Shown here: positions 2,264 through 49,275 of the stretch, piece after piece | Position numbering within the stretch: the first letter of the stretch is position 1 | Layout: the number at the start of each line of letters is the position of its first letter | Assembly: GCA_947259355.1 (NCBI GenBank) | Contig: CAMYMF010000012.1 | Span: 1-57,974, forward strand | Direction: 5' to 3' | DNA from: an uncultured Nitrospirota bacterium | GTDB lineage: Bacteria; CG2-30-53-67 | DNA: 57,974 nt | The notes under the pieces: generated by a model | Seen by the model: only the letters and a program-made list of their open reading frames with translations | Told to the model about the DNA's origin: nothing | Databases searched by the model: none | Translations under genes and position numbers: made by a program

Positions 2264-3192
2264 CCTTGAATGATTCTCTTTTGACGTTCATCCGGAAAAA
2301 GCTCGATCAGCTGAGTCAGGTCTGTCTCATATTTCTCTCTCAGATAGTGTCTGATATTATCGGGTATTCCAGATTTCTTTATGACCTTCGATCCGACGAT
2401 TCTCTTTACCGTCATCCTGACCGATTCCGGGAGAAGCCATTTGAGAGATGTTTTAAAGCGGCTCCGCTCAAAGAGGAGTCTGTATAGCGGAGCCACAAGA
2501 ACATTCCGGGGAACACCTGAAAAGTTATATTGTTTGCCGACGTTTGAAGCGACAAAGACCTTGCGGGCCCCCACAAACTCCAGGATCTCCTTGAAGACCC
2601 GTTCCGGTTCCGATGTCAGCTCTTCGAAAAGAAAGAATCGTGATAAAGGAAAACGAGTCTGGTAGGCTTTAACCTGCTCATAGTAAAGACCGGACCTGAG
2701 AAAATTATAATATTCATAGGGGTCGCCGGCCGCTTCCAACTCCCTGGCAATCGTGAAAAAATCCTCGGTCCAGCCCCCGCCCTGTTTTCTCAGCATGTAG
2801 GTGGACCAGGCGCGGCTCACTGGATCCCGCAGCACACCAATGATTTTAAGCTTTTTCATCCGATCCCCGTAGAGTTTTCTGATATTGTTTTGCGTCCGGG
2901 GATAAATATAGAGGTAGGATGTCGATGCTTCACCGAGAATCTGACCGGGCCCTGTGGAACCGAACAGTCCCAGGTAATCTTCCACATTCCACGGTTCGCT
3001 TCTGATGTCATCGGTGTGGGGAGAATACGCCTCACCGAGATAACTGAAAAACTGGGGCTCCTTCAAGGCGGGCATGAAGACGTCCGGATGGTTTTTTAAG
3101 TAGGAATAGAGAGAGGTCGTGCCGCTCCGGCTCGCCCCGACGACCAGAAAATCCGGGAGTAGAATCTCTTTGCTTTGATAGACGACCTTCAT
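2248..3192 (-). CDS. Sulfotransferase domain protein (PAPS-dependent)
   Basis: This is a 314-residue protein that probably transfers sulfate from PAPS to a hydroxyl of the exopolysaccharide. The N-terminal motif VVGASRSGTTSLYSYL (residues about 17-32) matches the 5'-phosphosulfate loop of the sulfotransferase family. Around residues 121-132, GVLRDPVSRAWSTYM matches the 3'-phosphate binding motif (RxP...S). Length is normal for bacterial carbohydrate sulfotransferases. The ATG overlaps the TGA of the preceding GT4-GT9 gene (ATGA), so it is the translationally coupled last gene of the polysaccharide operon. No signal peptide is visible, so it acts in the cytoplasm before export. The acceptor sugar cannot be deduced. 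Confidence 0.88.
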   Translation of the reverse strand: MKVVYQSKEILLPDFLVVGASRSGTTSLYSYLKNHPDVFMPALKEPQFFSYLGEAYSPHTDDIRSEPWNVEDYLGLFGSTGPGQILGEASTSYLYIYPRTQNNIRKLYGDRMKKLKIIGVLRDPVSRAWSTYMLRKQGGGWTEDFFTIARELEAAGDPYEYYNFLRSGLYYEQVKAYQTRFPLSRFFLFEELTSEPERVFKEILEFVGARKVFVASNVGKQYNFSGVPRNVLVAPLYRLLFERSRFKTSLKWLLPESVRMTVKRIVGSKVIKKSGIPDNIRHYLREKYETDLTQLIELFPDERQKRIIQGWLAS

Positions 3193-5513
3193 TCCTTCAC
3201 CGAAAACTGTTCAGAAACCGGCAGAGCCTTCTCTGTCTCCGACGTGAAACGGGCAAGCTTCACTTGAATGGCGTCAAACACGGCATCCGGACTGATCCGC
3301 TCCATGCAATCATGTGTTCCGATCCTGCAGGATCCCGAATTGCAGCCGATACAGGGAAGATCATCCCTGCGGAACACGGTGTGGTTCTCTCCGAAAGGCC
3401 ACCACTGCACGGCGTTGGTGGGTCCCATGAAAGAGACCGTGGGGGTTCCGACGGCGGCCGCCAGGTGCAGGGGACCGGAGTTGTTGCAGACAACAAGATC
3501 CATGACCGACAGCCGGGCGGCCAGATCCTTGAGACTCAGAGAAGGAGGCGCCAAGATCGGCGGCTCCCGCATCATCTCGTGAATCTGCAGCACCTGGTGC
3601 CACTCGTGTGGCCCCCCGAAGAGAACAATCCGGCCGGTTCCGGCAGCGAGAATCCGGTCGGCCAGTTCGGCAAATGAGGCCAGCGGCCAGCGCTGCGTGG
3701 GATGATGTGCGCCCGGATGTATCCCGATCCGTGCTTCGCGGCCGTGCAGGTCCATCTTTGCGATCCATTTTTTTGCCTCTTCACGTTCCCGGTCCGGAAT
3801 AAAAAGACGGCATTCATGCGCCAGGTTTATCCCCCAGGGTGAGAGCAGATACATCAGCAGGTCAACAAAATGCATTGCCTTTTCAGGGAAGGCAACGGGT
3901 TGATCGAAGAAAACCCCGCGGCCGTACTGATCATATCCTGCTGTGAAGCCGGCTCTTGCAAATCTTGCCATCAGCGCCGTCTGAAGATTCCCATCGGTAT
4001 TCAGATCGACAAGAAGTTCTGGTTTCAGTTTCCGAATCGCCTTGAGTGCGCGAAAAAACCCCCGGATCCGCCACCACCCTTTCTCCTGCGGCCCCGGGAG
4101 GATTGATCCCAGATCCGGGACCATCTCGAATAGAGACGCAACATAATCATTCGCCAAAACATGAATGGCTGCCCCATGAAATCGCCGGCCAAGGGCATCC
4201 AGCAGAGGCGTGGCGAGTGCGGCGTCTCCCAGCCTCTGTTGAGAGACAATGAGTATGGTGTCCGGGTGATGTGGACGATCGTTCTTCTTTTTCGGACGGA
4301 GCATGGTGGAGAGTAGATGCAGACACGCGCTTCGGCATCGCAGATAGAGATTCTTGAAGGCTTGTCGAAACCGCCTCCTGACGGATTGGGGTGCCACCTC
4401 TATCTCGTCGTAGAGCTTCTCCACGGCATGGACATGATCAATAATGTTGAACAACGCTTCGCACCGCTCACGGCCGGCCCTGCCCATCCGCTGACGGGCT
4501 GCTTTGTCCTGCGACAAGCTCAGGATAGAGGCCACCAGCGCCTCAGGGCTTTGGACAGGCACAAGGATGCCCGTCGTCGCGTGCTCAATGGCTTCAGGGA
4601 TCCCGCCCACCGATGTGCCGATGACGGGTTTCCCGCAGGCCATGGCCTCAATCACCGCCCGGGGAAGGCCCTCCATCCACGACGCCAGCACAAGGATATC
4701 CATCGCGGCCAGGACGGTGGGAATGTCTTTTCGATAGCCTGTGAATAGGACCCGCTTGTCCTGATCTTCTTCAGGAACCAGGGCTCGGAGCTTCTGTTCA
4801 TAGCCGGGCTCTCCGGTCCCGACAATCACAAAACGCACCGCATCGGTCTTATCAAGCACCTGCCGGGAGGCCGCAAGGAACTCTTCCATTCCTTTTTGCG
4901 GAACCAGCTGGGCAATCGTACCCACAAGGCAGATATCCCGTGCCAGGCCGATCTCTTCCCGGAACGACTGTCCCGACAGGCCGGGATGGAACTTCTCGCA
5001 ATCGACACCATTATAGATGGTTCTATATTTTGGTGTTCGCCCGCTCCGGACCCCAAAGCGATCCCCAACAGCCCGTGAGACGCCGATGATCCTGTTGACC
5101 AGGAACGGGTTCAGCCGGTCCAGGACGGGATCGGAAGAACTGACCCGAGCGTGCCAGACAAGAGGAATGCCGCGAAACAGGCAGACAAGCCCGGCCAGAA
5201 AGGTTGTCACGGGCCGGTCCGTGTGGACCATGTCAACCCGTTCCCGGGTGATGATTTTCCAGAAACCATAGAGCCATCTTAGCGTGGCCAATCGCCACAG
5301 CGTCGAGAGACGGAAAAAGGAGGAATCGAGCAGGTGAACCGCGCACCCGACATCCTCCAGGTGTTCCACGAGCGGTCCCGGATTCGGACAGATGGCAACG
5401 GGCTGATAACGGCTTCGGTCCAGACGTTTAATCAGGTTAAAGAGACTGACCTGACCGCCCAGATCGAGATCCGAGGAATCGCTCACATACAATATTCTCT
5501 TCTGCTCGCCCAT
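3189..5513 (-). CDS. Fused GT4 glycosyltransferase - GT9 (heptosyltransferase-type) protein
   Basis: Two complete GT-B glycosyltransferases lie in one 774-residue chain. Residues 1-370 are a GT4 enzyme: an N-terminal fold beginning KRILYVSDSSDLDLGGQ, a phosphate-binding C-half, and the EX7E motif EGLPRAVIE at 281-289. After a basic linker (about 371-417), residues 418-760 are a GT9 enzyme of the ADP-heptose:LPS heptosyltransferase type. It has IHPGAHHPTQRWP, the CNNSGPLHLAAAVGTP motif and a late Cys cluster (CIGCNSGSC). I chose the ATG at 5513 because homology begins right after it; an upstream in-frame ATG at 5642 would lie inside the preceding gene. No strong RBS is seen and the start is 7 nt after the previous stop. 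It probably adds two successive sugars to the exopolysaccharide repeat unit. Confidence 0.9.
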   Translation of the reverse strand: MGEQKRILYVSDSSDLDLGGQVSLFNLIKRLDRSRYQPVAICPNPGPLVEHLEDVGCAVHLLDSSFFRLSTLWRLATLRWLYGFWKIITRERVDMVHTDRPVTTFLAGLVCLFRGIPLVWHARVSSSDPVLDRLNPFLVNRIIGVSRAVGDRFGVRSGRTPKYRTIYNGVDCEKFHPGLSGQSFREEIGLARDICLVGTIAQLVPQKGMEEFLAASRQVLDKTDAVRFVIVGTGEPGYEQKLRALVPEEDQDKRVLFTGYRKDIPTVLAAMDILVLASWMEGLPRAVIEAMACGKPVIGTSVGGIPEAIEHATTGILVPVQSPEALVASILSLSQDKAARQRMGRAGRERCEALFNIIDHVHAVEKLYDEIEVAPQSVRRRFRQAFKNLYLRCRSACLHLLSTMLRPKKKNDRPHHPDTILIVSQQRLGDAALATPLLDALGRRFHGAAIHVLANDYVASLFEMVPDLGSILPGPQEKGWWRIRGFFRALKAIRKLKPELLVDLNTDGNLQTALMARFARAGFTAGYDQYGRGVFFDQPVAFPEKAMHFVDLLMYLLSPWGINLAHECRLFIPDREREEAKKWIAKMDLHGREARIGIHPGAHHPTQRWPLASFAELADRILAAGTGRIVLFGGPHEWHQVLQIHEMMREPPILAPPSLSLKDLAARLSVMDLVVCNNSGPLHLAAAVGTPTVSFMGPTNAVQWWPFGENHTVFRRDDLPCIGCNSGSCRIGTHDCMERISPDAVFDAIQVKLARFTSETEKALPVSEQFSVKE

Positions 5514-5520
5514 TTGGTTC

Positions 5521-6186
5521 TTACTCACATACCATGGCTGTGGTCCGTGCCATCTTTTCATGCGCTCCGTCAGTGTCTTGATAGGAGAGCGTCTTGACGA
5601 TGCGAGCCGGGTTGCCGGCCACGATGGTGTTCTCGGGAACATCTTTGGTCACCACACTGCCCGTGGCAACAATGGCGTTCCGGCCCACACGAACACCTTT
5701 CAGAATGATCACATCGTGTCCGATCCAGGCATTCTCTTCAATCAGGACGGCTCTGGTTTCCGAATGATAGATACTTCCATGGGCCGTGCGGTCACGATGC
5801 ACGCCGATGATCTGCTCTTTGCGCATCGTCGGGTCAATGGGGTGACTGTTGTTATCATGAATTTCTACGTTGTAGGATATCTGGCAATACTTGCCGATCT
5901 CAACACGTTCGGCACATTCAATTCTGACCCCGCTCAACGCAGCGAAATCAGAGATCTTCAGCATGCCTTTGTCATGGACATGTAAAACAACCTTCCCCAG
6001 TATGACGTGGTCCCCGATGACAAGTTGTTGACGGTGCCGGTTGGTCCATTCTGCATGGACAAATATACGCACCTTTTTGCCAACCATGGCGGTGCGCTTT
6101 AAGACAGCTTCCTGGTAAAGGTTGTACGGACGCCGCAGTGCCCAGTAGACAGCGTAGAGGGGGTCCCGTATCAGGTTCTGCAGCAT
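5521..6186 (-). CDS. Left-handed beta-helix acyltransferase (WbbJ/LacA type)
   Basis: This is a 221-residue hexapeptide-repeat O-acyltransferase that probably acetylates a sugar of the exopolysaccharide. The central part has isoleucine-rich hexapeptide turns (IEENAWIGHDVIILKGVRVG, then NAIVATGSVVTKDVPENTIVAGNPARIVK), the hallmark of the xenobiotic/maltose acetyltransferase class. The catalytic His lies in the EIHDNNSH segment. The ATG at 6186 has an AGGAG RBS (6193-6197) 6 nt upstream; a GTG at 6201 overlapping the previous stop is possible but less likely. Its 3' end lies 7 nt before the GT4-GT9 start. The acyl group and acceptor are inferred from family membership only. Confidence 0.87.
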   Translation of the reverse strand: MLQNLIRDPLYAVYWALRRPYNLYQEAVLKRTAMVGKKVRIFVHAEWTNRHRQQLVIGDHVILGKVVLHVHDKGMLKISDFAALSGVRIECAERVEIGKYCQISYNVEIHDNNSHPIDPTMRKEQIIGVHRDRTAHGSIYHSETRAVLIEENAWIGHDVIILKGVRVGRNAIVATGSVVTKDVPENTIVAGNPARIVKTLSYQDTDGAHEKMARTTAMVCE

Positions 6187-11324: not shown

Positions 11325-12884
11325 TCAGACCCGGATGAACCGAGGCAACACCCGTTGGAGCTGCAGACGAAAGATGCGCCGGTCCGCCTCTTTCAGATAA
11401 TCACTCATCAGCATGGCCCCGGCATAAAGCCCGAAGAAGAGCATCGCCTTGAGGCTGAGGATCCACAGCACGGTCAGCCGCCCCGGAGAGCCGTCCGGGT
11501 CCATCCCGAGCCGCCCGGCGAGATAGAGAAGCAGACACAATGCCAGCGAGATGAGCATCGGCTTCTCGTAGAGGTCCCGAAAGAAGGCTGCCGGGGAGCG
11601 TTCGAAGAAGCGCAGCACGATGCTCGTGTAGTAGATCAGACTCAACAGCGAGGCGATGAACGTGCCCAGCGGTGCGCCCAGAAACCCCAGCCGGACCACC
11701 AGGAGGGTACTCAGAACGGTATTGAAGACCAGCACGAAGCCCGCGGCTTTCATCTGATACTCGGGCTTGTGGAGCCCCTGGACGGTATGGGAGATGGCGG
11801 CTGTGGGAATGACCGTGTAATAGGCGAGAGCCAGCAGCTGTACTACGGGGACGGCTTTCTCGTAGCCCCTGCCCATCCAGAGCGTGATGAGGTCCGATGC
11901 GGTCAGGGCGACGAAGAACATGAGCGGGGTTCCCACCAGCACCACGCACTTGGACCCGAAGAGAAAGAGATCGTAGACCCGTCGGCGCTCATTGCGGGCG
12001 CTCAGCTCGGACACCGCCGGCATCACCGCCGAGACGAGCAGTGACGGGAAGGAGCGGACCGTCAGCGTCAATCGGGAGGCCATTTCGTAGAATGCCACAA
12101 AGACCCCGTTGACGAAGAAAGCAATGAGGAATTTGTCGAGATGGAGGTTCAGAAAGGATGCCAGGGTACTGACATGGATGCGCATGCCGAATCCAAAAAG
12201 TCTCTCGATGGATTTCCATGAAACGCCGCCCTCGGCCCGCACGGTCAAACCGGGCAGGACGCCATAGGCCAGTCGCGTCTGGCAGAGCCCCGACAAAGAG
12301 ATGACCGCCAGTTCGTTGAGCATTAGCCCGACGATGCCGTAGCCGCCCTCCAGGACAAAGACGGTCCCCAGCACCCTGGGAATGGACGATGCCATTTGAA
12401 TCTTGTTGCCCAGATCCGTCCGCTGCAGGCCGACAAGCACGGCGTTGTAGACGCCGAAGAGGCTTTTCACCGCAAAGAGGACCAGCCCGATCCGGAAGGC
12501 TGATTGCACAGCCTCGAAGGTGTCTGCCGGGAAGTGCAGCATGCGAAAGAGCGCGGGAAAGCACGGGGGTGCGATGAGCAGAATGCCAAGGCCCACCAGG
12601 GCATAGATAAGAAGGCCAGCCCGGACGGTCTGGTTGATACGCCGCTGCTCTCCCAGTGCGTGGTCGTGTGCAATGAATTTGACGAAGGCGTTGCCCACGC
12701 CCAAGTCGAAGAGACCTATATATCCGAGGAGGGCTCCGATCAGGGCCCAGGCGGCAAATTGCTCAAGACCGATGTGATGCAGAATGTAGGGCGTGAGAAA
12801 GAAGCTGACCAGCACCTGCCAGAACCGCCCGGCCGTATTGAAGAGGGTGTTGGTGACGATCTTGTCTGAAAGTCTCGGGCTCAT
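11325..12884 (-). CDS. wzx: Wzx-like polysaccharide repeat-unit flippase (MOP superfamily)
   Basis: This is a 519-residue integral membrane protein with about 12-14 hydrophobic helices spread along its length. It begins NTLFNTAGRFWQVLVSFFLTPYIL and GLFDLGVGNAFVKFIAHD, typical of the RfbX/Wzx branch of MOP exporters. It should flip the undecaprenyl-linked repeat unit across the inner membrane. The ATG at 12884 was chosen because homology begins there; a TTG at 12920 is also in frame. It lies between the Wzy-like gene and a methyltransferase gene in the same direction, as expected for a Wzx/Wzy-dependent locus. Confidence 0.9.
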   Translation of the reverse strand: MSPRLSDKIVTNTLFNTAGRFWQVLVSFFLTPYILHHIGLEQFAAWALIGALLGYIGLFDLGVGNAFVKFIAHDHALGEQRRINQTVRAGLLIYALVGLGILLIAPPCFPALFRMLHFPADTFEAVQSAFRIGLVLFAVKSLFGVYNAVLVGLQRTDLGNKIQMASSIPRVLGTVFVLEGGYGIVGLMLNELAVISLSGLCQTRLAYGVLPGLTVRAEGGVSWKSIERLFGFGMRIHVSTLASFLNLHLDKFLIAFFVNGVFVAFYEMASRLTLTVRSFPSLLVSAVMPAVSELSARNERRRVYDLFLFGSKCVVLVGTPLMFFVALTASDLITLWMGRGYEKAVPVVQLLALAYYTVIPTAAISHTVQGLHKPEYQMKAAGFVLVFNTVLSTLLVVRLGFLGAPLGTFIASLLSLIYYTSIVLRFFERSPAAFFRDLYEKPMLISLALCLLLYLAGRLGMDPDGSPGRLTVLWILSLKAMLFFGLYAGAMLMSDYLKEADRRIFRLQLQRVLPRFIRV

Positions 12885-12941
12885 GGTCACACTGGCACGT
12901 CCCCGGCAGCCTGGGATCAAGACCTGTCTTACGGGGAAGTC

Positions 12942-14330
12942 TCAAAAATGGGCAACGGGCGTATGGGCCGTCTCGGGGGTCGCTGCGGACCTGTCCGCCT
13001 CGGTCAGACTCGGCAGAATCAGCACGATCCCAAGCAAAAACATGAAAGGCTCCATGATCCGCACGATCACAAAGGTGTTGGCCCCAATGGCGTGCACGTA
13101 CATGGCCGCACAGCCCGCCAGCATTCCCAGGGAGAGCCCCGTCTTGAACGGTGTGTCGCTGTGCCGATACACGAGGAGAACCTCCCGGAAAATGACAAAG
13201 AGCAGGTAACCGAGGGCCGCCATCCCGACGAGCCCCAATTCCACCAAGGTCCGGAAATACTGGCTGTCAATGAACCCGTATCCTGTGACCCCGTAGCCGA
13301 GCACGGGGTGATTCACAAAATCCCTGAGACATTGCTGCCAGCTCGTCACCCGCTCGGAGGAGGAAGGGTCGAGGGTAATGCCAGCGATCTGGACGGACTT
13401 GGTCGGATGGGTTTGAAAGGTATAGTGCACTCGCTCCCGAGCGCTCTGGGGCGCCAGCAGGAACGTCAGGATGGTCGCCAGAATGGCAAAGTAGACGAGG
13501 ACCGTCTTTCGATAGCTGAAGAAGAGCAGGGTGCCGATCATCGGCAGCAGGGCGATCCACGATGTGCGCGAGAGGGTATACACAAAGGGAACCGCGAAGA
13601 AAGCCACCAGCCCGAGATAGAGCAGCTTGCGCTTATCCGTGCGGGCTGTCAGGAAGAGACCGGACGCGAGGGCCATCAGCAGGAGCAGATAGCCGCCCAG
13701 CGTGTTGGGCTCCCCGGACTCTCCCTCAAAGGGCGCCGAGACGCGAACACCCCCCGGAATCTGCAACATCCCATAAATGGAGATGAGGATCCCCGTGACG
13801 AGCAGGGCCCACACAAACCGCCTCACCTGATCCTCCCGTTGGAGATGATTGACCACCAGAAAATAGACCAAGAAATACTCGAGATATTTCATCACATAGA
13901 AAAAGCCGCTGGCCGGCCGGACCCGGCCGAAGAAAACCCCCAGGGTCGTGGAGAAGACACAGACGAAGGCATAGATGAGGATGGCCCGGTTGATGGGGGT
14001 CTTACGGATCAGTCCCATCTCCTTGAAGATGGCCGTCCGGGCAAACCAGGAGATGCCGATGATCACCAGGAGGATATCGTCCACCCGCAGCACGATGTCG
14101 CGGCCGCCCCCACCGCCCACCTTAATTTCCGGCGAGAGCAGCATGGAGAAGACCAAAATGTAGAGGGCCGCTTCGATGCGGAAGATCGAGACCACCACGA
14201 TGGCAAAGCCCGCCACCGCCTTGAAGGCCGCACCTGTCTCCAAACTTGTCACGGCCTGCGTCGTCAGGAACACCACCGCAAGCAGCAGCAGGTAGAAGAG
14301 GTGAGTCCTCGACCGTTCGGAAGCAATCAT
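12942..14330 (-). CDS. O-antigen ligase/polymerase family protein (Wzy-like)
   Basis: This is a 462-residue protein with about 10-12 membrane segments. A large extracytoplasmic loop (residues about 285-355) contains SSERVTSWQQCLRDFVNHPVLGYGVTGYG, matching the Wzy_C/O-antigen ligase signature (R...W......HP..G.G..). In this locus it most likely polymerises repeat units on the periplasmic side; ligase and polymerase cannot be separated by sequence. An N-terminal GGGGGRD loop near residue 72 is unusual. The ATG has GAGAAGG just upstream. It follows the Wzc-like gene by about 80 nt in the same direction. Confidence 0.87.
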   Translation of the reverse strand: MIASERSRTHLFYLLLLAVVFLTTQAVTSLETGAAFKAVAGFAIVVVSIFRIEAALYILVFSMLLSPEIKVGGGGGRDIVLRVDDILLVIIGISWFARTAIFKEMGLIRKTPINRAILIYAFVCVFSTTLGVFFGRVRPASGFFYVMKYLEYFLVYFLVVNHLQREDQVRRFVWALLVTGILISIYGMLQIPGGVRVSAPFEGESGEPNTLGGYLLLLMALASGLFLTARTDKRKLLYLGLVAFFAVPFVYTLSRTSWIALLPMIGTLLFFSYRKTVLVYFAILATILTFLLAPQSARERVHYTFQTHPTKSVQIAGITLDPSSSERVTSWQQCLRDFVNHPVLGYGVTGYGFIDSQYFRTLVELGLVGMAALGYLLFVIFREVLLVYRHSDTPFKTGLSLGMLAGCAAMYVHAIGANTFVIVRIMEPFMFLLGIVLILPSLTEADRSAATPETAHTPVAHF

Positions 14331-14409: not shown

Positions 14410-16686
14410 TCAGAAAAAGAGCCGGAAGACGTTGGTCTTGGCAAGACCCTCTTTGGCGCGCTGCAGCGACTTCTCCAGCGCCGCCAGCCAGTCGGTCCTT
14501 GCTTCCTGCTCCCGACCGGTATCCTCTCCGTAGTACTTGTACTGATACTGGGAGAGCGGATAGTAACCGCTGATCTCCGCGCTAATGTCGTTCAGGACGA
14601 TCCCCAGTATGTTGGCCTGAACATTGTCCAGATGGGTCTTGGCACGTTTGAGCGCGTTGCGCGGAATCCGACCGGCCTGGTAGACCAGCACCACCCCGTC
14701 CACCTTGGGCGACAGAATAGCAGCATCCGTAACCGGCAAAATGGGCGGGCAATCCATGAGGATCATGTCGTACTCTTCGCGCACGGCGTCCAGAAATTCA
14801 TTCATGCCGGAAGAACTGAGCAACTCCGCGGGGTTCGGGGGAATGCCGCCGCAGGTGATGATTTGGAGATTCTCCAAACCGGGCGTTTTCATGATGTCGT
14901 CCATACGCATCTTGCCCATCATAAGATCGGTGATATCCTTGACCGCTTCGCGCCAGTGGATTTTGCCCAGGATGACATCGGTCAGACCGACGTCCCGGTT
15001 GACACCGAAGATCTTGTACACCGACGGTTTGCGAAGGTCGCAGTTTACCAGAAGCACCTTGTTCCCCTCCTGGGCCTTGGTGATGGCCAGGTTGGCCACG
15101 GTGGTGCTCTTGCCCTCCTTCAGAGAGGAACTCGTAAAGAGGATGACCTGGCCTTGCTTTTCCAGATTGGTAAACTGTATGTTGGTCCGCAGGGTGCGGT
15201 AACTCTCGGCCACCGATGATTTCGGTTTCAGCTGGGTAATGAGATGGGCGTGCCGCCCCAAGAGGTCCTCGATGCGGCTGTCCTTGTCACTGGTCTTGAT
15301 GAGAATTTCCCGCAGTTCGTTCAAGTCAATGTGGGGAATCACGCCGAGCACGGGGATCTGCAGGTAGCGTTCCACGTCTTCAATGGTACCGATGGAGGTG
15401 TCCAGCGTCTCCCGGAAGAGTGCCATGAGCAGCCCCACCATGGCGCCCAGCAACAGACCGACCACCGTGGTGGCCACCCGTTTGTTGCTGATGCGAACAC
15501 CCTGATCGGCCGTGCGGATCACCGAGACTTCATCGGCATGTTCCTTTTCCCGGATTTCGGCTTCCTGATGTTTGGTCCGGAGCAGGGAAAAGAGATCTTC
15601 GTTGACTCTCACGTCGCGCTGGAGCTGGCTCAACTGGACCTCATACTCCGGCAGATTCCGGTTCCGATCCATCATGCCGGAGACTTCTTCTTCGAGCACC
15701 ACGGCCCGCTGACGATAGGCGGCCTCCTGGTTGCGCAGCTCCCGCAGCATCTCCCGACGCACGTCCCGGATCTTTTCATCCAGCCCCTTCACCTGAGGAT
15801 GCTCGGTGGTGTAATCAATGAGCAGATTATTCCGGTTCAGGATCAGTTCCACCAGAGAGCTGTTCAGCTGGGACAAGATCGTGTTTCCCTCCTCCACATA
15901 GGGTCGCTCCGAGAGCATCTCGTCCAGGGCGCCGATGGTCGACTTCTCCAACCGCCGGATCATGGCAGCGCTTTCTTCGCTCCTGCGCTGCACCCGCTGC
16001 AGCTCTGCCTCTGCGGCCTGAAGTTTGCTTAAAGTCAAATTGACTTCTGCATCGAAGGTGATGAGCTTGTGCTGTTCCTTGAAGTTGCGCAGCCGCTTCT
16101 CGGACGCCTCCAACTTGTTCTGCGTTTCCAGGAGCTGATTCTCAATGAATTCCCGGGTACGTCGGGCCTCGTGGGTACGGGTATGAATATGGTAGGCACG
16201 ATAGGCCTCCGCCACGGTGTTGGCAATGCGCTTTGCGCGCTCTGCCTCCCCAGCGGATATCATAATATTGATGATGTTCGTGCTGCCTTCTTGCTCGGTG
16301 CGAATTTGGCCCTGCACCCCGCGCACCACGGCCATATGCTGTTCGGACTGCTGGACCTCCTCCAGAGTAAGCTCCGGCGGCACCAACCCCAGCGACTGGC
16401 ATACCCGGATCACCACTGGCGTGCTGCGGATGACTTCCGATTCACTGGCAATGTTGTCCCAGGCGTTCCAGGTGAAGGCCTCGAGGAAGAGGCCTGCCAC
16501 GGTCTTGCTCTGCTCCACCTTCACGCTGGACATCGCTTCAAAGATGGAGGGTTTGCGCATGGCAATGATCAAGCTGAGAAAGCCAACGGCCAGGGCGGTG
16601 AAGAGGATCAGCCGCTTGCGCTTGGCCAGAATGATAAGGTAATCCCTCAGATCAAACTCATACTGGGACGTGTCGATGGCTTTCAT
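14410..16686 (-). CDS. Wzc-type polysaccharide co-polymerase / BY-kinase
   Basis: This 758-residue inner-membrane protein controls chain length and export. TM1 lies at about 26-43, a long periplasmic coiled coil at 160-390, and TM2 at about 404-424. The cytoplasmic ATPase domain follows: Walker A TSSSLKEGKST (518-528), Walker A' VLLVNCDLRKP (544-554) and Walker B MILMDCPP (641-648). A cluster of six tyrosines (708, 709, 714, 716, 718, 719) follows, the usual autophosphorylation tail. The first Asp of the A' motif (D.D.R) is Asn548 here, encoded AAC, which may weaken kinase activity. It sits directly downstream of the export protein gene with which Wzc proteins pair. Export partner and tyrosine phosphorylation are inferred from the family. 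Confidence 0.93.
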   Translation of the reverse strand: MKAIDTSQYEFDLRDYLIILAKRKRLILFTALAVGFLSLIIAMRKPSIFEAMSSVKVEQSKTVAGLFLEAFTWNAWDNIASESEVIRSTPVVIRVCQSLGLVPPELTLEEVQQSEQHMAVVRGVQGQIRTEQEGSTNIINIMISAGEAERAKRIANTVAEAYRAYHIHTRTHEARRTREFIENQLLETQNKLEASEKRLRNFKEQHKLITFDAEVNLTLSKLQAAEAELQRVQRRSEESAAMIRRLEKSTIGALDEMLSERPYVEEGNTILSQLNSSLVELILNRNNLLIDYTTEHPQVKGLDEKIRDVRREMLRELRNQEAAYRQRAVVLEEEVSGMMDRNRNLPEYEVQLSQLQRDVRVNEDLFSLLRTKHQEAEIREKEHADEVSVIRTADQGVRISNKRVATTVVGLLLGAMVGLLMALFRETLDTSIGTIEDVERYLQIPVLGVIPHIDLNELREILIKTSDKDSRIEDLLGRHAHLITQLKPKSSVAESYRTLRTNIQFTNLEKQGQVILFTSSSLKEGKSTTVANLAITKAQEGNKVLLVNCDLRKPSVYKIFGVNRDVGLTDVILGKIHWREAVKDITDLMMGKMRMDDIMKTPGLENLQIITCGGIPPNPAELLSSSGMNEFLDAVREEYDMILMDCPPILPVTDAAILSPKVDGVVLVYQAGRIPRNALKRAKTHLDNVQANILGIVLNDISAEISGYYPLSQYQYKYYGEDTGREQEARTDWLAALEKSLQRAKEGLAKTNVFRLFF

Positions 16687-16757: not shown

Positions 16758-19295
16758 CTAAGGGCTGCTGTCCAACGGCCGAATATTCTCTTTGTTCAGA
16801 TCAATGGTGGTGCGCAGCGCTTCGAATTGATAGGGCCAGAGCACGAAATCGAGGGCCGGCCGGATGTTTTTGAGGAGCCCGGCGACCGACGCGATTCGGG
16901 TTCTCGGCACGTAGATGATGTCGTTGTCCCGCAGGGTGACATTGATGGCCAGGTTCCCGCTATTGAAGAGCTTGCGGAAATCGACGGGGATCACTTTCGG
17001 ATGAGAGATATCGCCACGGATGACCCGGACGTCGTTGATAACAGCGCTATCTGCAAAACTGCCCGCCTTACCCACCGCCTCCAGCACATTCATCCCTTCC
17101 TTCAGATCGTAGATCCCCGGATTCTTGACTTCGCCGAAAATGTATATCTTGTTCATCCCTTCGGACATCTCGGGGATAAAAATGGAATCACCGGGATAGA
17201 CCGGGATGTCCTGGCTGAGGTCGGACTGAAAGATGGCCTTGTAGAGATTGACATAAACGGTGGAGCCGTTCTGACGCTGCACAGTCACCTTCTTCAAATT
17301 GGCTGTCGGCCGCGGCCCGCCGGCAATGGTAATCAACTCCACAATTCTCGTCGGTTTCGTCAGCACATAGACGCCGGGACCCGTCGGCTGGCGCACCAGC
17401 GCATTGACGGCTCCGAGCACGAGGACTTCCTGGCTGTGGAACTCCTGGACAAGCACGTCGATTTTGGGCTGCTTGATGTATCGGCTGAGTTTCGCGGTCA
17501 GCAGTCTATCGAGCTCGGTGACCGTCAGTCCGCTGACGGCGATGCTGTCCACCATGGGGAAGGAAAGTGTTCCATCCGGTCGGACCCGTACTTCGTACTC
17601 GTCAGCACTGAAATGTTTCCAGAGGATGATCTTCAAGATGTCGCCGGGGCCAATCCGGTAGCCATTCAGGGAATGGCTCTCCTGGAAGGATGAGTGCTGT
17701 TGCTGCTCTTCAGGAGTCATGGTCTCTGCCGCGTCCGCCTCCTCCCGGTTCGTCACGACCACCTCGACGCGAGCCCCGCCGGCTGCATCCTGTGTCCCCA
17801 TTTCCGCGGCAGCCTGGCCGTCGGCATAGCCGACAACGGTGGCTTTGTCGGGGTCCATGGCGCCGCGCTCGCCCAGAATGTCCCGCACGGCAACGGCCCG
17901 GGCCTCGGAGAGCTCCATGAGCGTTCTGTCCTCCCCCGTCGGCTCCGAGCCCGACGCATGCCCTTCGAGGCGCACCTCTGCCCCTTCGGCCGATTCCAGA
18001 AGGCTCACGATCCGTTCTATGGCCTCCCTGCCCGACGCCGAGGGTGTAACGGTGCCAACCTCAAAGTGAACGCCTATGCGGGTCATGAGTGGTGCGGCAT
18101 CTTTCCGACTCGCGGCAGCTGGGGGAACCTCGTTCGTGCCCACCGCCGGCGGCTGCACCGCTGCACCGCCGCCGAGCCACACTTTGACTCCCTCACTGTA
18201 GCTCGACGCCACGAGATCATGGTGTCCGTCTCCGTTGACATCGGACAGCACCATCCCGTAGTAGCCACCGTCCTCGGGAAGGGCGTGCACCACCGGACGC
18301 CATTCCCCCACGGCGCGCCCCAACCAGAGCCGAACCCCTCTGGAATCGGCCGAACTGGCGGCAAGATCGGTTATTCCGTCGCCATCGAAGTCATCGGCCA
18401 GCACTTCCCAGAAAAAGCCCTCCTCCACGGGGGAGATCTTTTCCACCCACTCTCCGCCTTCGCCACCGCACCAGATCTTGATGCCCTCGTAGTAGGTGGT
18501 GGCCGCCACATCGAGCCATCCGTCCCCATTGAAATCGGCAGCCGTTACCCCCCAGAAGTCCCCTTTTTTCGCTGGACTGGCATAGGCGGACCAGGCACCG
18601 TCCCCGCTTCCGGTGAAGATGAAGATACCCCCGGAGTGGCCCCACGCTGTGCCGATGATGTCGAGGTTCCCGTCCCGGTTGATATCGGCCACTTCCACAT
18701 CCCGGTAAATGTGCGACGCATCGGGACCGACCTCATCGATCCACTCTCCCTGTCCGTCCCCCAGCCAGATTTGAATGCCTCCCTGCAGGTCTCCGGAGCT
18801 GTTCGCGGCCACGAGATCGAGAAAACCGTCCGCGTTGACATCGACGCATTTGAGACTTTCGTAACTCCCCATTTCCGCCGGGGAGACCCCCCGGTGCCAT
18901 CGTCCGTCCGCCCCCTGCAGGAGCACGACGACGCCTTTCAGGTCCCGCTGACCGCCGATGACCAGGTCGGTGCGCCCGTCCCCATTGAGATCGCCGGCCG
19001 CAATGGAGCGGACATCTCCGATCACGGCAGGCCGCGGCGCCACCCGCCATCTGCCGTGCCCGTCTCCGTACCAGATCGACACCCCGCCGGGCAGGAACGA
19101 CCCTGCCGCGATATCGGGCAGCCCGTCCCCATTGAGATCACTCACGGTGGCACAGCGGTAATGACCTGCATTGCTCGGCCCGCTCTCCGCCGACAGATCC
19201 AGACCGACGCCGGTGGGTACGGCCCCCCGGTGCGAACAGCCCGCAGCAAGCCACAAGAAGAACAGGATGGTGGCGACAGAGAGTCTTTTCACCAT
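16758..19295 (-). CDS. Fused export lipoprotein: 7-bladed FG-GAP propeller + OmpA + Wza-type PES/SLBB
   Basis: This is an 845-residue chain with an unusual domain order. Residues 1-20 are a lipoprotein signal (lipobox LAAGC, Cys20). Residues 45-378 hold seven repeats of about 50 residues. Each carries a calcium-type DxNxDGxxD loop (53-61, 102-110, 152-160, 204-212, 254-262, 302-310, 352-360), enough for a closed seven-bladed integrin-like propeller. Residues 405-515 are an OmpA C-terminal, peptidoglycan-binding domain (LMELSEARAVAV, final RVEVVV). Residues 545-615 are a polysaccharide export domain (YRIGPGDILKI). Two SLBB domains (620-705, 715-798) and a C-terminal helix (about 805-830) follow. 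It should form the outer-membrane polysaccharide channel for the adjacent Wzc-like partner. As the first gene after the divergent promoter region, it leads the operon. The propeller and OmpA modules are extra relative to standard Wza (about 380 residues). Confidence 0.92.
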   Translation of the reverse strand: MVKRLSVATILFFLWLAAGCSHRGAVPTGVGLDLSAESGPSNAGHYRCATVSDLNGDGLPDIAAGSFLPGGVSIWYGDGHGRWRVAPRPAVIGDVRSIAAGDLNGDGRTDLVIGGQRDLKGVVVLLQGADGRWHRGVSPAEMGSYESLKCVDVNADGFLDLVAANSSGDLQGGIQIWLGDGQGEWIDEVGPDASHIYRDVEVADINRDGNLDIIGTAWGHSGGIFIFTGSGDGAWSAYASPAKKGDFWGVTAADFNGDGWLDVAATTYYEGIKIWCGGEGGEWVEKISPVEEGFFWEVLADDFDGDGITDLAASSADSRGVRLWLGRAVGEWRPVVHALPEDGGYYGMVLSDVNGDGHHDLVASSYSEGVKVWLGGGAAVQPPAVGTNEVPPAAASRKDAAPLMTRIGVHFEVGTVTPSASGREAIERIVSLLESAEGAEVRLEGHASGSEPTGEDRTLMELSEARAVAVRDILGERGAMDPDKATVVGYADGQAAAEMGTQDAAGGARVEVVVTNREEADAAETMTPEEQQQHSSFQESHSLNGYRIGPGDILKIILWKHFSADEYEVRVRPDGTLSFPMVDSIAVSGLTVTELDRLLTAKLSRYIKQPKIDVLVQEFHSQEVLVLGAVNALVRQPTGPGVYVLTKPTRIVELITIAGGPRPTANLKKVTVQRQNGSTVYVNLYKAIFQSDLSQDIPVYPGDSIFIPEMSEGMNKIYIFGEVKNPGIYDLKEGMNVLEAVGKAGSFADSAVINDVRVIRGDISHPKVIPVDFRKLFNSGNLAINVTLRDNDIIYVPRTRIASVAGLLKNIRPALDFVLWPYQFEALRTTIDLNKENIRPLDSSP

Positions 19296-20566: not shown

Positions 20567-22684
20567 TTGAACCCATTTCGCGCATTCACCAGACAGTCTG
20601 AACGAACCCTGTTCGCGCTGTGCTGTCTCGCGGCGGCGGTGCTCCTGTTCCTCTTGGCCCCCCGCCCGGTAACGGCCGCCGACCACACCATCACCATGAA
20701 CTTCGAGGACACCGACATCCACATGGTGATCAAATTCATCAGTGAGCTGACCCACAAGAACTTCATCATCGATGAGAAAGTCACCGGCAAGGTGACCATT
20801 GTCTCACCGGAGGAAATCACGATCCAGGAGGCCTACAGCGTTTTCGAGTCTATTCTGGAGGTCAACGGCTTCGCCCTGGTACCTGCAGGCAAGGCCACAA
20901 AAATCATCCCCAGCAGCGAAGCGAAGCAGAAGGCCCTGTCAACGGTCATCGGAAAACGGGACATTCCCCGGCAGCACGCCGACGAGTTCGTCACCCAGGT
21001 GACCCGCCTGGAATACACCGACGCCGATCAGCTGTCCGGGCTGATTCGACCCCTTTTCTCACCGGACGGACATCTGGTCGCGTACAAACCGACCAACACC
21101 CTGATCATGACCGACATGAAATCGAACCTTTTTCGGATCATGACGATCATCAGGGAACTCGATGTCAAAGGCTACCATGCAGACCTCTACGTGATTCCAC
21201 TCCAGTACGCGTCGGTCTCAACGGTGACAGAACACTTGACCTCAATTCTCCAGCAAGCAGCCCCCACCGGCGTTACTCGCGTGACGCGAAGAACCACCCG
21301 ACGGGGCCAGACCACGAGGGCGCCGGCCGCGGTGGCCGGGGTCTCCTCATCGGCCAAGATCCTCGCCGATGAGCGGACCAACTCCCTCATCGTGCTGGCC
21401 ACCCGGAGTGACTATCGAACCATCACCCGCCTCGTTGAGAAACTCGACGTGGAAGCCCCGGAAGGCAAGGGCCGGATCAACATTTATTACCTCCAGCATG
21501 TCGTCGCCGAAGAGATTGTGGACGACCTGAAGGAATTCATCTCCGGCATCCAACCGGGGGCGAAGAAGGGGCAGGCCGTACCGGTCCTGCCTTCGGACAC
21601 GGACATCAAGATCGTCTCTAACAAAGCCACCAACTCGCTGATCATCAACGCAGAGCCCGACGACTACGAACAGATCCGGGGCGTCATTGAGAAACTCGAC
21701 ATCCCCCGATCGCAGGTGCTCATTGAAGCCCTGATCATGGAAGTGCGGGGGACCGACTCGCTGAACCTCGGCGTGGAGTGGCAGACCTTCGGCGGGGAGG
21801 TGGGCACGGACAATTCCATCGACAAGCTCGGCTTCGGCGGCTCCCTCACGAACCAGGGAAACCTCGTCAGCGTGATCGACTCGATCAACGAACGCGAGAT
21901 CCCCACAGGCCTCGGCGGCGGGTTCAATCTCGGTGTCTTCGGGAATTTCATCGAAGTGGACGGCCTGGAGTTCCCCTCGCTGTCGGCACTGGTCACCGCG
22001 GTGGCTACCCGCTCCGATACCAACGTCCTGGCCACCCCGCAGATTTTGACCATGGACAACGAGGAAGCCGAGATCAGGGTGGGCGAGAACCGCCCCTTTC
22101 TCACCCAGTCCCGCACCGGCGAGCAGGGTGTGAACGACGTCTTTCAGTCCTTTGACTTCCGGGACGTGGGATTGACCCTCAAAGTCACCCCGCACATCAG
22201 CCAGAACCGGATCGTTCGCCTGGAGCTGTTTCAGGAGATTTCCCGCGTGAACGAAGAGGCAACGCTAGGACCGGGAGGGACCGGTTCCACCGCCCCAGTA
22301 ACGAACAAGCGCTCCGCCGACACCACGGTGGTTGTTCAGGACGGGCATACCATCGTCATTGCCGGGCTCATTCAGGACGCCGTGACGGACACGAGCACCA
22401 AGGTTCCCTGCCTGGGAGACCTCCCCTTGCTGGGGTATCTGTTCAAGTCCCAGAGCAATGCGAACGACAAGACCAATCTGATGATCTTCCTCACCCCGCA
22501 CATTATCACCAACCCAATCGAAGCGGCAGCGCTCTCGGAGCGTAAACACTCGGAATTCGAGTCTTACAAGCAATACGAAAAGAAGAAACCGGATCTCTTC
22601 TTCCGGGGTCGCGACGGCGGCATCAAACTGCAACTGGAGGAGCACCAGGGGACTGCGCCCGCACCGGAGCCGGGGCAGCGCTAG
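20567..22684 (+). CDS. gspD: Type II secretion secretin GspD, copy 1
   Basis: This is a 705-residue outer-membrane secretin. The start is a TTG at 20567 with GGAG 8 nt upstream; no in-frame ATG is near. The signal peptide ends about residue 38 (RPVTAAD). N0 begins at TMNFEDTDIHMVIKFISEL, followed by N1-N3 repeats (about 140-400). The N3 loop contains an Ala/Thr/Arg-rich insert. The C-terminal secretin domain (about 460-650) has the motif VLATPQILTMDNEEAEIRVG and the end block VPCLGDLPLLGYLFKS. It forms the exit channel as a multimer. It is followed by a second, highly similar secretin gene, an unusual arrangement for a gsp operon. Confidence 0.95.
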   Translation: MNPFRAFTRQSERTLFALCCLAAAVLLFLLAPRPVTAADHTITMNFEDTDIHMVIKFISELTHKNFIIDEKVTGKVTIVSPEEITIQEAYSVFESILEVNGFALVPAGKATKIIPSSEAKQKALSTVIGKRDIPRQHADEFVTQVTRLEYTDADQLSGLIRPLFSPDGHLVAYKPTNTLIMTDMKSNLFRIMTIIRELDVKGYHADLYVIPLQYASVSTVTEHLTSILQQAAPTGVTRVTRRTTRRGQTTRAPAAVAGVSSSAKILADERTNSLIVLATRSDYRTITRLVEKLDVEAPEGKGRINIYYLQHVVAEEIVDDLKEFISGIQPGAKKGQAVPVLPSDTDIKIVSNKATNSLIINAEPDDYEQIRGVIEKLDIPRSQVLIEALIMEVRGTDSLNLGVEWQTFGGEVGTDNSIDKLGFGGSLTNQGNLVSVIDSINEREIPTGLGGGFNLGVFGNFIEVDGLEFPSLSALVTAVATRSDTNVLATPQILTMDNEEAEIRVGENRPFLTQSRTGEQGVNDVFQSFDFRDVGLTLKVTPHISQNRIVRLELFQEISRVNEEATLGPGGTGSTAPVTNKRSADTTVVVQDGHTIVIAGLIQDAVTDTSTKVPCLGDLPLLGYLFKSQSNANDKTNLMIFLTPHIITNPIEAAALSERKHSEFESYKQYEKKKPDLFFRGRDGGIKLQLEEHQGTAPAPEPGQR

Positions 22685-22755
22685 CAAGAGCGGCGCACGC
22701 AAAGCGGACACCGGTGGGTGAACGCTTCATCGAAACCGATCACATGGGGACCGTC

Positions 22756-25635
22756 ATGATACGTCAGAGTCTGGTTCGTCTCACGATATGGGCCGTGCTG
22801 TTCACCTGTTTGCTCCTCCCCTTCTCGGCACCTTCCGTGCAGGCCGAGGAGGAGTTGATCACCATGAACTTCGAGGACACGGACATTCGGGTCTTGATTA
22901 AGTTCATGAGCGAGCTGTCCCAGAAGAACTTTATCGTCGATGACAACATCAAGGGGAAGGTCACCGTCTTCTCTCCAGAGAAGATTACGCTCCAGGAAGC
23001 CTTCAACGTGTTTCAGTCGATCCTCGAAGTGAAGGGCTTCACGCTGATACCCGCCGGCAAGGCCATCAAAATCGTGCAGAGCAGCGAAGCCAAACAGCGC
23101 GGCATCGAGACGCTCACCGCAAGGCCCTCCTTTCTGGGGGAGAGGAACGACGAGTTCGTGACCCGCATCGTTCGACTGGAGTACGTTGATGTCAACGAAG
23201 CGTCCACCCTCGTGCGGCCGCTGGTGTCCAAGTACGGCAACCTGAACCCCTACAAACCGACCAATACCCTCATCCTCACCGATGTCAAATCGAACCTCTA
23301 CCGCATCATGAAGATCATCAATGAAATCGATGTCAAGGGGTATCATGCGGAGTTGTATGTGATTCCGCTTCGCTTTGCTTCCGTGAAAACCGTCACCGAC
23401 CATCTAAACAAGATTCTGGAAGAGGGAACCGTGGCGACCCCGAGGGCCCCTGCAAGACCGCGGGGCCGGGCCCCCCAGCAGGCTGCGGTGACGGCCGGCG
23501 GTGTCTCCACGTCGGCCAAGATCATCTCCGATGAGCGCACCAACTCCCTCATCGTGCTCGCCACACGGACGGACTACGAAACGATCATCAACCTGGTGAG
23601 AAAACTGGACGTGGAAGCCCCTGAGGGGAAGGGTCGGATCAATATCTACTACCTCCAGAACGCGGTGGCCGAGGAGATGGTCTCGGTGCTCCAGGAGTTC
23701 ATCACCGGCATCAAACAGGACCAGAAGGCCGGGCAGGGGCAGGCAAAACTCCCGACGGAAACGGACATCAAGATTGTTGCCGACAAGGCGACCAACTCCC
23801 TCATTATCAATGCCGACCCCGAAGACTACGAGCAGATCAAAGGCGTGATTCAGAAACTCGACATCCCGCGGTCCCAGGTACTCATCGAAGCCCTCTTTAT
23901 GGAAGTCCGGGGATCGGACTCCATGAGCCTGGGTGTTGAATGGATCGGTTTTGGCGGCGAGGTGGGCACTGACAACTCCGTCGACAAACTCGGCTTCGGC
24001 GGCTCGCTGACGGGCGGCGGCAATCTGCCGCGGGTCATTGACAGCATCAATGAGCGGGAAATCCCGACGAGCCTTGGCACCGGCTTCAACCTCGGCGTCT
24101 TCGGCAATTTCATCGAGGTGGATGGGCTGGAATTTCCTTCCATTTCGGCCTTGATTACGGCCGTGGCCACCCGCGGCGACACCAATATTCTGGCCACCCC
24201 ACAGATTCTCACCATGGACAACGAAGAGGCCGAGATCAAGGTGGGTGAGAACCGTCCCTTCTTGTCGCAGGCTCGCACCGGAGAGCAGGGGGTCAACGAC
24301 GTCTTTCAGTCTTTTGATTTTCGGGACGTGGGGCTCACCCTGAAGGTGACCCCTCACATCAGTCAGAACCGGACGGTTCGCCTGGAGCTCTTCCAGGAGA
24401 TCTCCAGGGTCAACGAGGAGGCCACGACAGGACCGGGCGGGACCGGTGCCACCGCGCCGGTGACGACCAAGCGGTCCGCCGATACGACCGTCGTGGTCAA
24501 GGATGGCCATACCATCGTCATCGGCGGGCTCATCGAGGATGACGTCACCGACAGCGATACCAAAGTCCCATGTCTCGGGGATCTTCCCTTACTGGGTTAT
24601 CTTTTCCGGTCGAGTACGAATTCCACGGGAAAGACCAACCTGATGATCTTCCTGACCCCCCACATCGTCACCAATCCCACGGAGGCGGCGGACCTGTCTG
24701 AAGGCAAGTTTGAAACCTTTGAGGATTTCAAGCGTTACGAAAGCCGAACACCGGAACTTGATTTCTACGGTCCCGACAAAGGGCCCGGCACGGGCGAGAG
24801 AGACTCGCTGCCGCAATTGCACAAACCGGAACTGTTGCCCGATCGAACCCGTGAACGGCGTCCGCAGAGCGGGTCCGTCCCGGGGGCGGATGCGTCCGTG
24901 CAGGCGGCTGCCCGGCCCGACACCGGCCCCCCCGCGAAAACCGCCCCATCGGCACCGTCCCCGGCCGCGCCGGAGCCAGGCGCCTCCGCGATGCCAACGG
25001 GGCTCGGCGCCGCGTCCATGGAGCTTCCCGATCCGGCCGTCATCGAACAGAAGAAGAAAGAGGCCATGGCCGTGCTGCAGGAGTTGACCCGATCCTCGTC
25101 CCTCCCGGCTGCGGCTGCGCCCGGCCCAGCGGTGCGGGAAACCATGGCCCGCAGCACCACGCCGGAACTGACCGGTTATCTCGTCCGGGCGGGCGTCTAT
25201 TTCGATACCCATTTTCTCAGAAAACATCAAAGACGGCTCTCCGATCTCGGGTATTCGCCGATGACCCGCACGAAAACGGTCATGCGGAACCAGAACACCC
25301 TGCGGGTCGGACCCCTCAAGGGGGAGTCCGATTTCGAGAAGATTGCCGCACAAGCCAGGACAGAGAGGGCCGGCATTGAAAAGATCCGAGATGGCGAGAA
25401 TCTCTACATACAGCTGACCTTCCCGCAAGCGCCGGAGGCCCTCGATCCCATGGCTGGCCGCCTGCACCGACAGGGATATGGGGTTACCATCGAGAACCAC
25501 CCCTACCCGAGAACGATCTACTGGTTGGTGGTGGGCGATTATGCCACGAAGGAAGAGGCGAGCCGGGTGCAGCAGGCCTTGCAGCAGCGTAACATTGAAT
25601 CCATCATTCTCGAGAATCGCGAGGCCCTTCGGTGA
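22756..25635 (+). CDS. gspD: Type II secretion secretin GspD, copy 2, with C-terminal extension
   Basis: This is a 959-residue secretin paralogue of the preceding gene. Signal peptide, N0-N3 and secretin domains line up along about 690 residues, with long identical runs such as GLTLKVTPHISQNR. The ATG at 22756 has GGGGA 6 nt upstream; GTG 22714 and ATG 22744 are in frame without a good RBS. After the secretin domain it carries about 260 extra residues. These are a Pro/Ala-rich low-complexity linker (about 690-810) and a folded tail (about 815-959) with two similar halves beginning YLVRAGVYFD and YWLVVGDYAT, like SPOR-type peptidoglycan-binding domains. The extension probably lies in the periplasm or near the S-domain. 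The SPOR assignment is inference from pattern only. Confidence 0.93.
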   Translation: MIRQSLVRLTIWAVLFTCLLLPFSAPSVQAEEELITMNFEDTDIRVLIKFMSELSQKNFIVDDNIKGKVTVFSPEKITLQEAFNVFQSILEVKGFTLIPAGKAIKIVQSSEAKQRGIETLTARPSFLGERNDEFVTRIVRLEYVDVNEASTLVRPLVSKYGNLNPYKPTNTLILTDVKSNLYRIMKIINEIDVKGYHAELYVIPLRFASVKTVTDHLNKILEEGTVATPRAPARPRGRAPQQAAVTAGGVSTSAKIISDERTNSLIVLATRTDYETIINLVRKLDVEAPEGKGRINIYYLQNAVAEEMVSVLQEFITGIKQDQKAGQGQAKLPTETDIKIVADKATNSLIINADPEDYEQIKGVIQKLDIPRSQVLIEALFMEVRGSDSMSLGVEWIGFGGEVGTDNSVDKLGFGGSLTGGGNLPRVIDSINEREIPTSLGTGFNLGVFGNFIEVDGLEFPSISALITAVATRGDTNILATPQILTMDNEEAEIKVGENRPFLSQARTGEQGVNDVFQSFDFRDVGLTLKVTPHISQNRTVRLELFQEISRVNEEATTGPGGTGATAPVTTKRSADTTVVVKDGHTIVIGGLIEDDVTDSDTKVPCLGDLPLLGYLFRSSTNSTGKTNLMIFLTPHIVTNPTEAADLSEGKFETFEDFKRYESRTPELDFYGPDKGPGTGERDSLPQLHKPELLPDRTRERRPQSGSVPGADASVQAAARPDTGPPAKTAPSAPSPAAPEPGASAMPTGLGAASMELPDPAVIEQKKKEAMAVLQELTRSSSLPAAAAPGPAVRETMARSTTPELTGYLVRAGVYFDTHFLRKHQRRLSDLGYSPMTRTKTVMRNQNTLRVGPLKGESDFEKIAAQARTERAGIEKIRDGENLYIQLTFPQAPEALDPMAGRLHRQGYGVTIENHPYPRTIYWLVVGDYATKEEASRVQQALQQRNIESIILENREALR

Positions 25636-42822: not shown

Positions 42823-42962
42823 ATCGCCACCACTTGCACTCCCCTGTGCCGTCGGGGAGGTGAAATAGCGTTTACGAGAAGTCTTTGGCTGGCCGCAGAT
42901 CCGGGGCGGGCGACACGTGCGCGGTGTTTCTGTCCTGCACCTAAGCTTTGCTGCTGCATCGG

Positions 42963-42992
42963 TTGTTAACTCCCGGCCCCCTGAAGTATACT
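42963..42992 (+). promoter_or_regulatory. Promoter of the msrAB gene
   Basis: TTGTTA (42963-42968), an 18-nt spacer and TATACT (42987-42992) lie about 45 nt before the start of the methionine sulfoxide reductase gene. Confidence 0.5.
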
Positions 42993-43037
42993 CTGAAAAC
43001 GCGAGACCATGTCAGTGTAGCGAAAAATGAACGTGTG

Positions 43038-45536: not shown

Positions 45537-45637
45537 CTCCCTCCACCCTTTCCTTTCGTCCACATCAATGATCGCCCCGCGCCGTGCAGGTGCAAACGAT
45601 CCCACCGACCCACGCGTTTACCTGTGATCTATCCGGG

Positions 45638-47248: not shown

Positions 47249-47308
47249 CTCTCTGTCCTTTCCGGGTGCCTGCGCGGTGCCACACACCGCAGCCCATGAC
47301 CGCACCCG

Positions 47309-49084: not shown

Positions 49085-49275
49085 AATGCGCCGCGCAGGA
49101 CCGTCCCGAAGTAAACCTGTTCGGGACGCATTCAAGTTGACTCCGCCTCCGGCCGGCCCGTTTTCTCTCCTTGGCACCACGGTTGAAAGAGACCCACGGG
49201 GCCTCATGGTACTACGCCTTCACCACAAAAACCGCTGGAAAGAAAGCAAACATGCACAAAGCAAAACGTATCCAA

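Follow-up and report, generated by a model that had tools for sequence, protein, structure and literature searches.

The question raised by this locus is whether a polysaccharide exporter of the Wza type, a seven-bladed propeller and an OmpA-family domain are truly parts of one polypeptide, and if so what the additional domains may do for the export machine. The stretch analysed here (the window, 57,974 nucleotides) comes from a 3.1 Mb genome in 94 contigs, about 90% complete, of CG2-30-53-67, which PMC10591310 describes as a candidate phylum of deep groundwater. On its minus strand a single open reading frame (16758..19295), with no internal stop or frameshift, encodes an 845-residue lipoprotein whose Pfam matches run, from the N- to the C-terminus, propeller, OmpA-like domain, Poly_export, SLBB and SLBB. 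The chain begins with a signal peptide (residues 1-20, 19236..19295 on the minus strand, as are all the features of this gene) with the lipobox LAAG-C20 and Ser at +2; Cys20 is invariant in the window's family and, going by what such lipoproteins do, would carry the lipid. The propeller and OmpA-like domain precede the exporter domains and so separate the lipid anchor from the export ring, and the linker from the OmpA-like domain to Poly_export (residues 517-543) is short, polar and devoid of a signal sequence, so that the exporter half would not be exportable by itself. An earlier note, made from the sequence alone, had described a Wza-type exporter, a full seven-bladed propeller and a peptidoglycan-binding OmpA domain in one chain, to be checked by a profile search of the translation; FG-GAP, OmpA, Poly_export and SLBB were all matched, and the description stands save for peptidoglycan binding as there worded.

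The window's family comprises six genomes in the searched set, and the protein is present in six of six. Orthologues intact as a single open reading frame are found in G001 (85% identical) and in G003 and G004 (58-59% identical), while the copies in G002 and G005 are split solely at contig ends. Domain order is thus kept throughout the family, in four intact chains (that of the window included) and two contig-end splits, and the motif positions of the propeller correspond across all six genomes. A scan of genome contigs returned one relative, 85% identical.

Residues ~36-380 (18156..19190) match FG-GAP_3 at 4.8e-38 and make up an FG-GAP/VCBS propeller. Exactly seven D-x-[ND]-x-D-G-x-x-D motifs are present, at residues 53, 102, 152, 204, 254, 302 and 352 and so spaced by 49, 50, 52, 50, 48 and 50 residues, which bears out the seven repeats at about 50-residue spacing counted earlier (48-52 apart here); among 20,000 residue shuffles 19,916 held no motif and the maximum was two. 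For closure of the propeller, which the earlier note had left to structure prediction, AlphaFold2 was given residues 28-392 with 39 rows (those of the window and of L038, with FG-GAP fragments of contigs picked out by a pattern search), the viral-contig fragments found by DNA pattern being used solely to deepen this alignment. The model obtained (pLDDT 84.8, pTM 0.87, 27 strands) has six four-stranded blades and a three-stranded blade 7, and on it a closed seven-bladed propeller is, as a prediction, well supported; a full-length model from a two-sequence alignment was unusable (pLDDT 30). CRTAC1 is the top Foldseek match (E 2e-14) and by VIA-align reaches Z 33.5 with an rmsd of 2.6 Å over 346 residues, the integrin alpha heads following at Z 31-33. 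CRTAC1 (9etn) and the integrin heads (3fcs, 1jv2) share the seven-bladed fold and the DxNxDGxxD loops, although at just 13-22% identity, and in contrast to them the present propeller is joined to an exporter. No integrin domain beyond the propeller occurs in the chain, the remainder being OmpA and OPX by Pfam. In solved FG-GAP propellers, such as those of the integrins, loops of this kind bind calcium in a structural role that keeps the blades stable, and the intact motifs imply that calcium would be bound here too.

The OmpA-like domain (residues ~405-516, 17748..18083) is the least conserved of the chain, with 31-39% identity between genera of the window's family. Its assignment to the fold family of OprF (5u1h) and MotB (6ysf) is by profile, the Pfam OmpA match covering residues 411-503 (3e-8 for the whole protein, 1.2e-9 for the domain alone, 34.3 bits against a curated cut-off of 27.2), and the Arg of the LS..RA motif is shared with both. 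The pair of Asp and Arg that binds DAP is however incomplete, for Arg466 is kept, indeed invariant in the window's family, but the Asp column is Ser448 here and S, D, Q, E or G across the family. Three residues past that column Glu451 is also invariant and might substitute for the missing Asp; the alignment to OprF, against which the domain has a three-residue insertion, places Glu451 on the Asp after that insertion; the alignment to MotB does not. In other lineages the Asp is present (G334, G203) or absent (G157, G080). With the lowest conservation in the chain and the DAP-binding Asp mostly replaced, binding to the wall is uncertain and may have been lost, and the “peptidoglycan-binding” of the earlier note could not be upheld for this domain.

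Poly_export (PES, D1 of Wza; residues 544-616, 17448..17666) matches PF02563 at 2e-20 (73 bits against a cut-off of 28) and the Wza chains in the PDB at E 1e-24 to 4e-26, and is followed by two SLBB stretches, the first at residues ~624-713 (17157..17426, borders approximate) and the second at 716-796 (16908..17150), with SLBB_2 at 8.8e-20 for the whole protein. Poly_export and the two SLBB domains of E. coli Wza (OPX class 1; 2j58, 9r60) align to residues 544-817 with a best E of 4e-26, and the likeness extends to the outer-membrane lipoprotein signal and the adjacent gene for a Wzc partner; Wza itself, however, has neither propeller nor OmpA domain, and the present chain is about twice as long and has no Wza_C match. 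The C-terminal 45 residues (16761..16895), conserved in the window's family, are a possible outer-membrane helix; the last 58 residues have no Pfam match at E<=10, to Wza_C (PF18412) or otherwise, and their helical moment is not outstanding; for several class 1 proteins fold recognition was needed (PMC9603273). With Poly_export, SLBB domains after it and a genetic link to Wzc/PCP and Wzx/Wzy, the sequence has what would be asked of an OPX protein, and assembly into an oligomeric ring and export of polysaccharide would be expected from the family.

OPX classes 1-3 (PMC9603273) share with this protein Poly_export followed by SLBB. The survey that defined them, the largest on OPX proteins that was found, queried Poly_export, SLBB, Wza_C and GfcC only, and so N-terminal FG-GAP and OmpA domains fall outside its classes; it sorts OPX proteins mainly by what comes after Poly_export, and its main text has no FG-GAP or OmpA. 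Since the published classification considered only the part that follows Poly_export, it is of consequence that the N-terminal side, from lipid anchor to ring, can house large folded modules. No published description of an FG-GAP-OPX fusion was found in the open-access literature, so that the reservation of the earlier note, that the architecture might be one already characterised, is answered to that extent, although the architecture itself is not unique.

The gene heads a minus-strand block coding for the exporter, a Wzc-type kinase, a Wzy_C ligase, a flippase, a methyltransferase and glycosyltransferases. Immediately downstream lies the Wzc-type co-polymerase and tyrosine autokinase (14410..16686, minus strand; Pfam Wzz, GNVR and AAA_31, TIGR01007 above the NCBIfam cut-off), then the O-antigen ligase or Wzy_C-type protein (12942..14330, minus strand; Wzy_C 4.2e-12) as third gene of the conserved block, and the Wzx-type flippase (11325..12920, minus strand; Polysacc_synt_3 4.6e-15, Polysacc_synt 6.2e-15). 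The block of OPX, Wzc and ligase genes is kept with the propeller fusions of G221 and G144, with the OmpA-only exporter of G080 and with the AMIN-TPR exporter of G100; OPX and Wzc alone are kept in G334 (with propeller), G400 (up to the contig end) and G094 (plain), and no Wzc homologue was found in the ~9 kb upstream and 18 kb downstream read around the G157 fusion. A related arrangement is seen in L064 (1-2421, plus strand; a more distant relative, of family f95) and L065, where a Poly_export-SLBB exporter stands behind TPR repeats and AMIN, before a Wzc gene, as an N-terminally extended OPX. The exporter gene of the window is divergent from a type II secretion operon whose first gene is gspC, a junction also present in G001, G002, G003 and G004. 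On the plus strand there are two tandem complete type II secretion gspD secretin genes (20567-22684 and 22714-25635, both plus strand; TIGR02517 E 8e-169 and 5e-165), the second with a long C-terminal extension, and G002, G003 and G004 have one gspD at the corresponding place.

Outside the family the combination is found repeatedly. A survey of 386 genomes from ~258 families, in which two candidates were scored per genome and which therefore gives a lower bound, recovered the fusion in at least five families. The full order propeller-OmpA-Poly_export-SLBB occurs in the window's family, in G157 (L055) and in G334/G203 (L057, L056/L085), so that the search proposed earlier for other chains with these four domains was answered by two further phyla; propeller-exporters without OmpA occur in G221 (L062) and in G144 and relatives (L063, L111-L115; L116 is cut short), and OmpA-exporters without propeller in G080/G350 (L059, L060). 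At least three phylum-level lineages thus have the full architecture and five have the propeller. Recurring as it does in bacteria that are unrelated, and all of them uncultured, the fusion is to be taken as a real variant of a known export machine. Searches by phylum returned 2 genomes for the phylum of G157, 9 for that of G334, 18 for that of G144 and 3 for that of G221, numbers low enough to indicate that these phyla are small and sparsely sampled. No propeller-exporter match was found in the sister family f2; the phylum of G361 (95 genomes) gave exporters only, with no propeller match at E<=1e-60; a profile search of viral contigs gave one distant partial match only; and no plasmid covers 80% of the query. 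The relatives from other phyla (L055, L057, L062, L063, L112-L115, L059, L060) resemble the window's protein in domain order, in their OPX branch (100/99) and mostly in the OPX-Wzc gene order, but differ in that some are without OmpA and some without propeller; no characterised member among them was found in the open-access literature.

As to descent, a tree of 54 exporter regions places all propeller- or OmpA-bearing exporters on one side of a branch with support 100/99, a side that also holds four exporters lacking both domains and the truncated G295 row. The propeller-OPX as one clade was not rejected (p-AU 0.089, the truncated G295 row included). Without G295 the one-clade test gives p 6e-36, a trivial rejection because that row is sister to that of G157 and has its N-terminus cut by a contig end. 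A tree of the propellers splits fused from other FG-GAP propellers weakly (61/86). These trees thus neither establish nor refute that propeller and exporter were joined only once.

What, then, might the N-terminal arm do? In Wza the ring has the Poly_export domain at its base, with both the lipid and the C-terminus at the outer membrane. What separates the lipid from the ring base in the present chain is the propeller, the OmpA-like domain and two linkers, and these would therefore run along the exterior of the ring in the periplasm. In the published Wza-Wzc complex, Wza stands 140 Å tall (PMC12881504). The reading we prefer, and to which we give about even chances, is of an OPX translocon of a Wzx/Wzy locus in which the arm of propeller and OmpA-like domain serves as a periplasmic docking and positioning collar. 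Poly_export and SLBB would form the ring and channel, dock on the neighbouring Wzc and pass the polymer, while the calcium-stabilised propeller and then the OmpA-like domain would make the arm from the lipid anchor at Cys20 in the outer membrane to the ring base at Poly_export. The propellers would then form a collar around the periplasmic ring, docking a partner or glycan, and the OmpA-like domain would hold or position the translocon near the peptidoglycan layer; collar, docking partner and wall contact are put forward as proposals. A role in positioning within the envelope is favoured because OmpA and AMIN, two wall-associated families, are both found N-terminal to exporters at an equal place in the operon, although contact with the wall would seem dispensable, as two propeller lineages do without OmpA.

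Gating and sensing by the propeller are a matter of speculation. A lectin-like propeller could bind the polymer or a periplasmic glycan and so select or retain the correct chain at the exporter. That VCBS propellers belong to a single supercluster with those of integrins and tachylectins (PMC8023676), and that the fold matches include 4tqj, a fungal lectin that binds GlcNAc (TM-score 0.55, normalised by query), would fit such a selector or gate. So would the BC loops, which lie across the propeller from the calcium loops, are the most invariant element (55% against 36-49% in other elements, a small excess that may not be significant) and carry the aromatics F67, W218 and Y268, although this is a hint only. 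The protein-contact propellers (integrins, LGI1) are however better matches, and the propeller is retained even where the genes downstream of the ligase differ from one genome to the next, which does not suggest a tight specificity for one polymer, so that a selector or gate is an unlikely though arguable role. More doubtful is a spacer without specific ligand, propeller and OmpA being a rigid tether that sets the distance from outer membrane to ring. The interchange of N-terminal modules at one place in the operon (OmpA, propeller, propeller-OmpA, TPR-AMIN) speaks for it, but the propeller is ~62% identical between genera of the window's family, where the exporter domains are 62-81% identical, and a propeller approaching the export domains in this way is under constraint, beyond the needs of a passive spacer. 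That the seven loops sense periplasmic calcium and toggle export is improbable, given that FG-GAP loops in solved propellers are structural calcium sites and that, although none of the window's seven motifs is broken and the family keeps their spacing, the exact motif is missing from some blades in relatives such as L055, L062 and L114. Scarcely credible is an artefact in which separate genes were fused by sequencing or assembly error, the frameshift or join that the earlier note had named as fatal to its reading, for although the source assembly is fragmented, the same single frame is seen in orthologues from independent genomes (85%, 59% and 58% identical) and again in proteins of other phyla, and these single-frame orthologues rule out a join.

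A wider extension of the docking and positioning collar is possible but doubtful, namely that there exists, in several sparsely sampled phyla, an unrecognised branch of exporters each of whose subunits would carry a seven-bladed calcium propeller, accompanied in some by an OmpA-like domain, the propellers forming a ring around the translocon that captures glycan or partner proteins in the periplasm, and with OmpA and AMIN modules swapped at the same place in the operon. Were such modules to position the channel with respect to the wall or to capture polymer, they would bear on the placement of the channel through the peptidoglycan and on its coupling to partners, and modules swappable within a conserved operon offer a natural handle for testing this.

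Elsewhere in the window an 817-residue open reading frame (3189-5642, minus strand) combines a GT4-type glycosyltransferase with a domain like the family 9 heptosyltransferases, and another of 2,601 residues (50124-57929, minus strand), the 5' end of which is possibly open, contains Calx-beta repeats together with a stretch resembling SdrD_B and two stretches of OmpA domain. Adjoining genes for isocitrate lyase, malate synthase and AceK, the isocitrate dehydrogenase kinase/phosphatase, make up a glyoxylate-shunt block (44193-49207, minus strand), and MsrA and MsrB domains (PMSR, SelR) are fused in a single open reading frame (42948-44126, plus strand).
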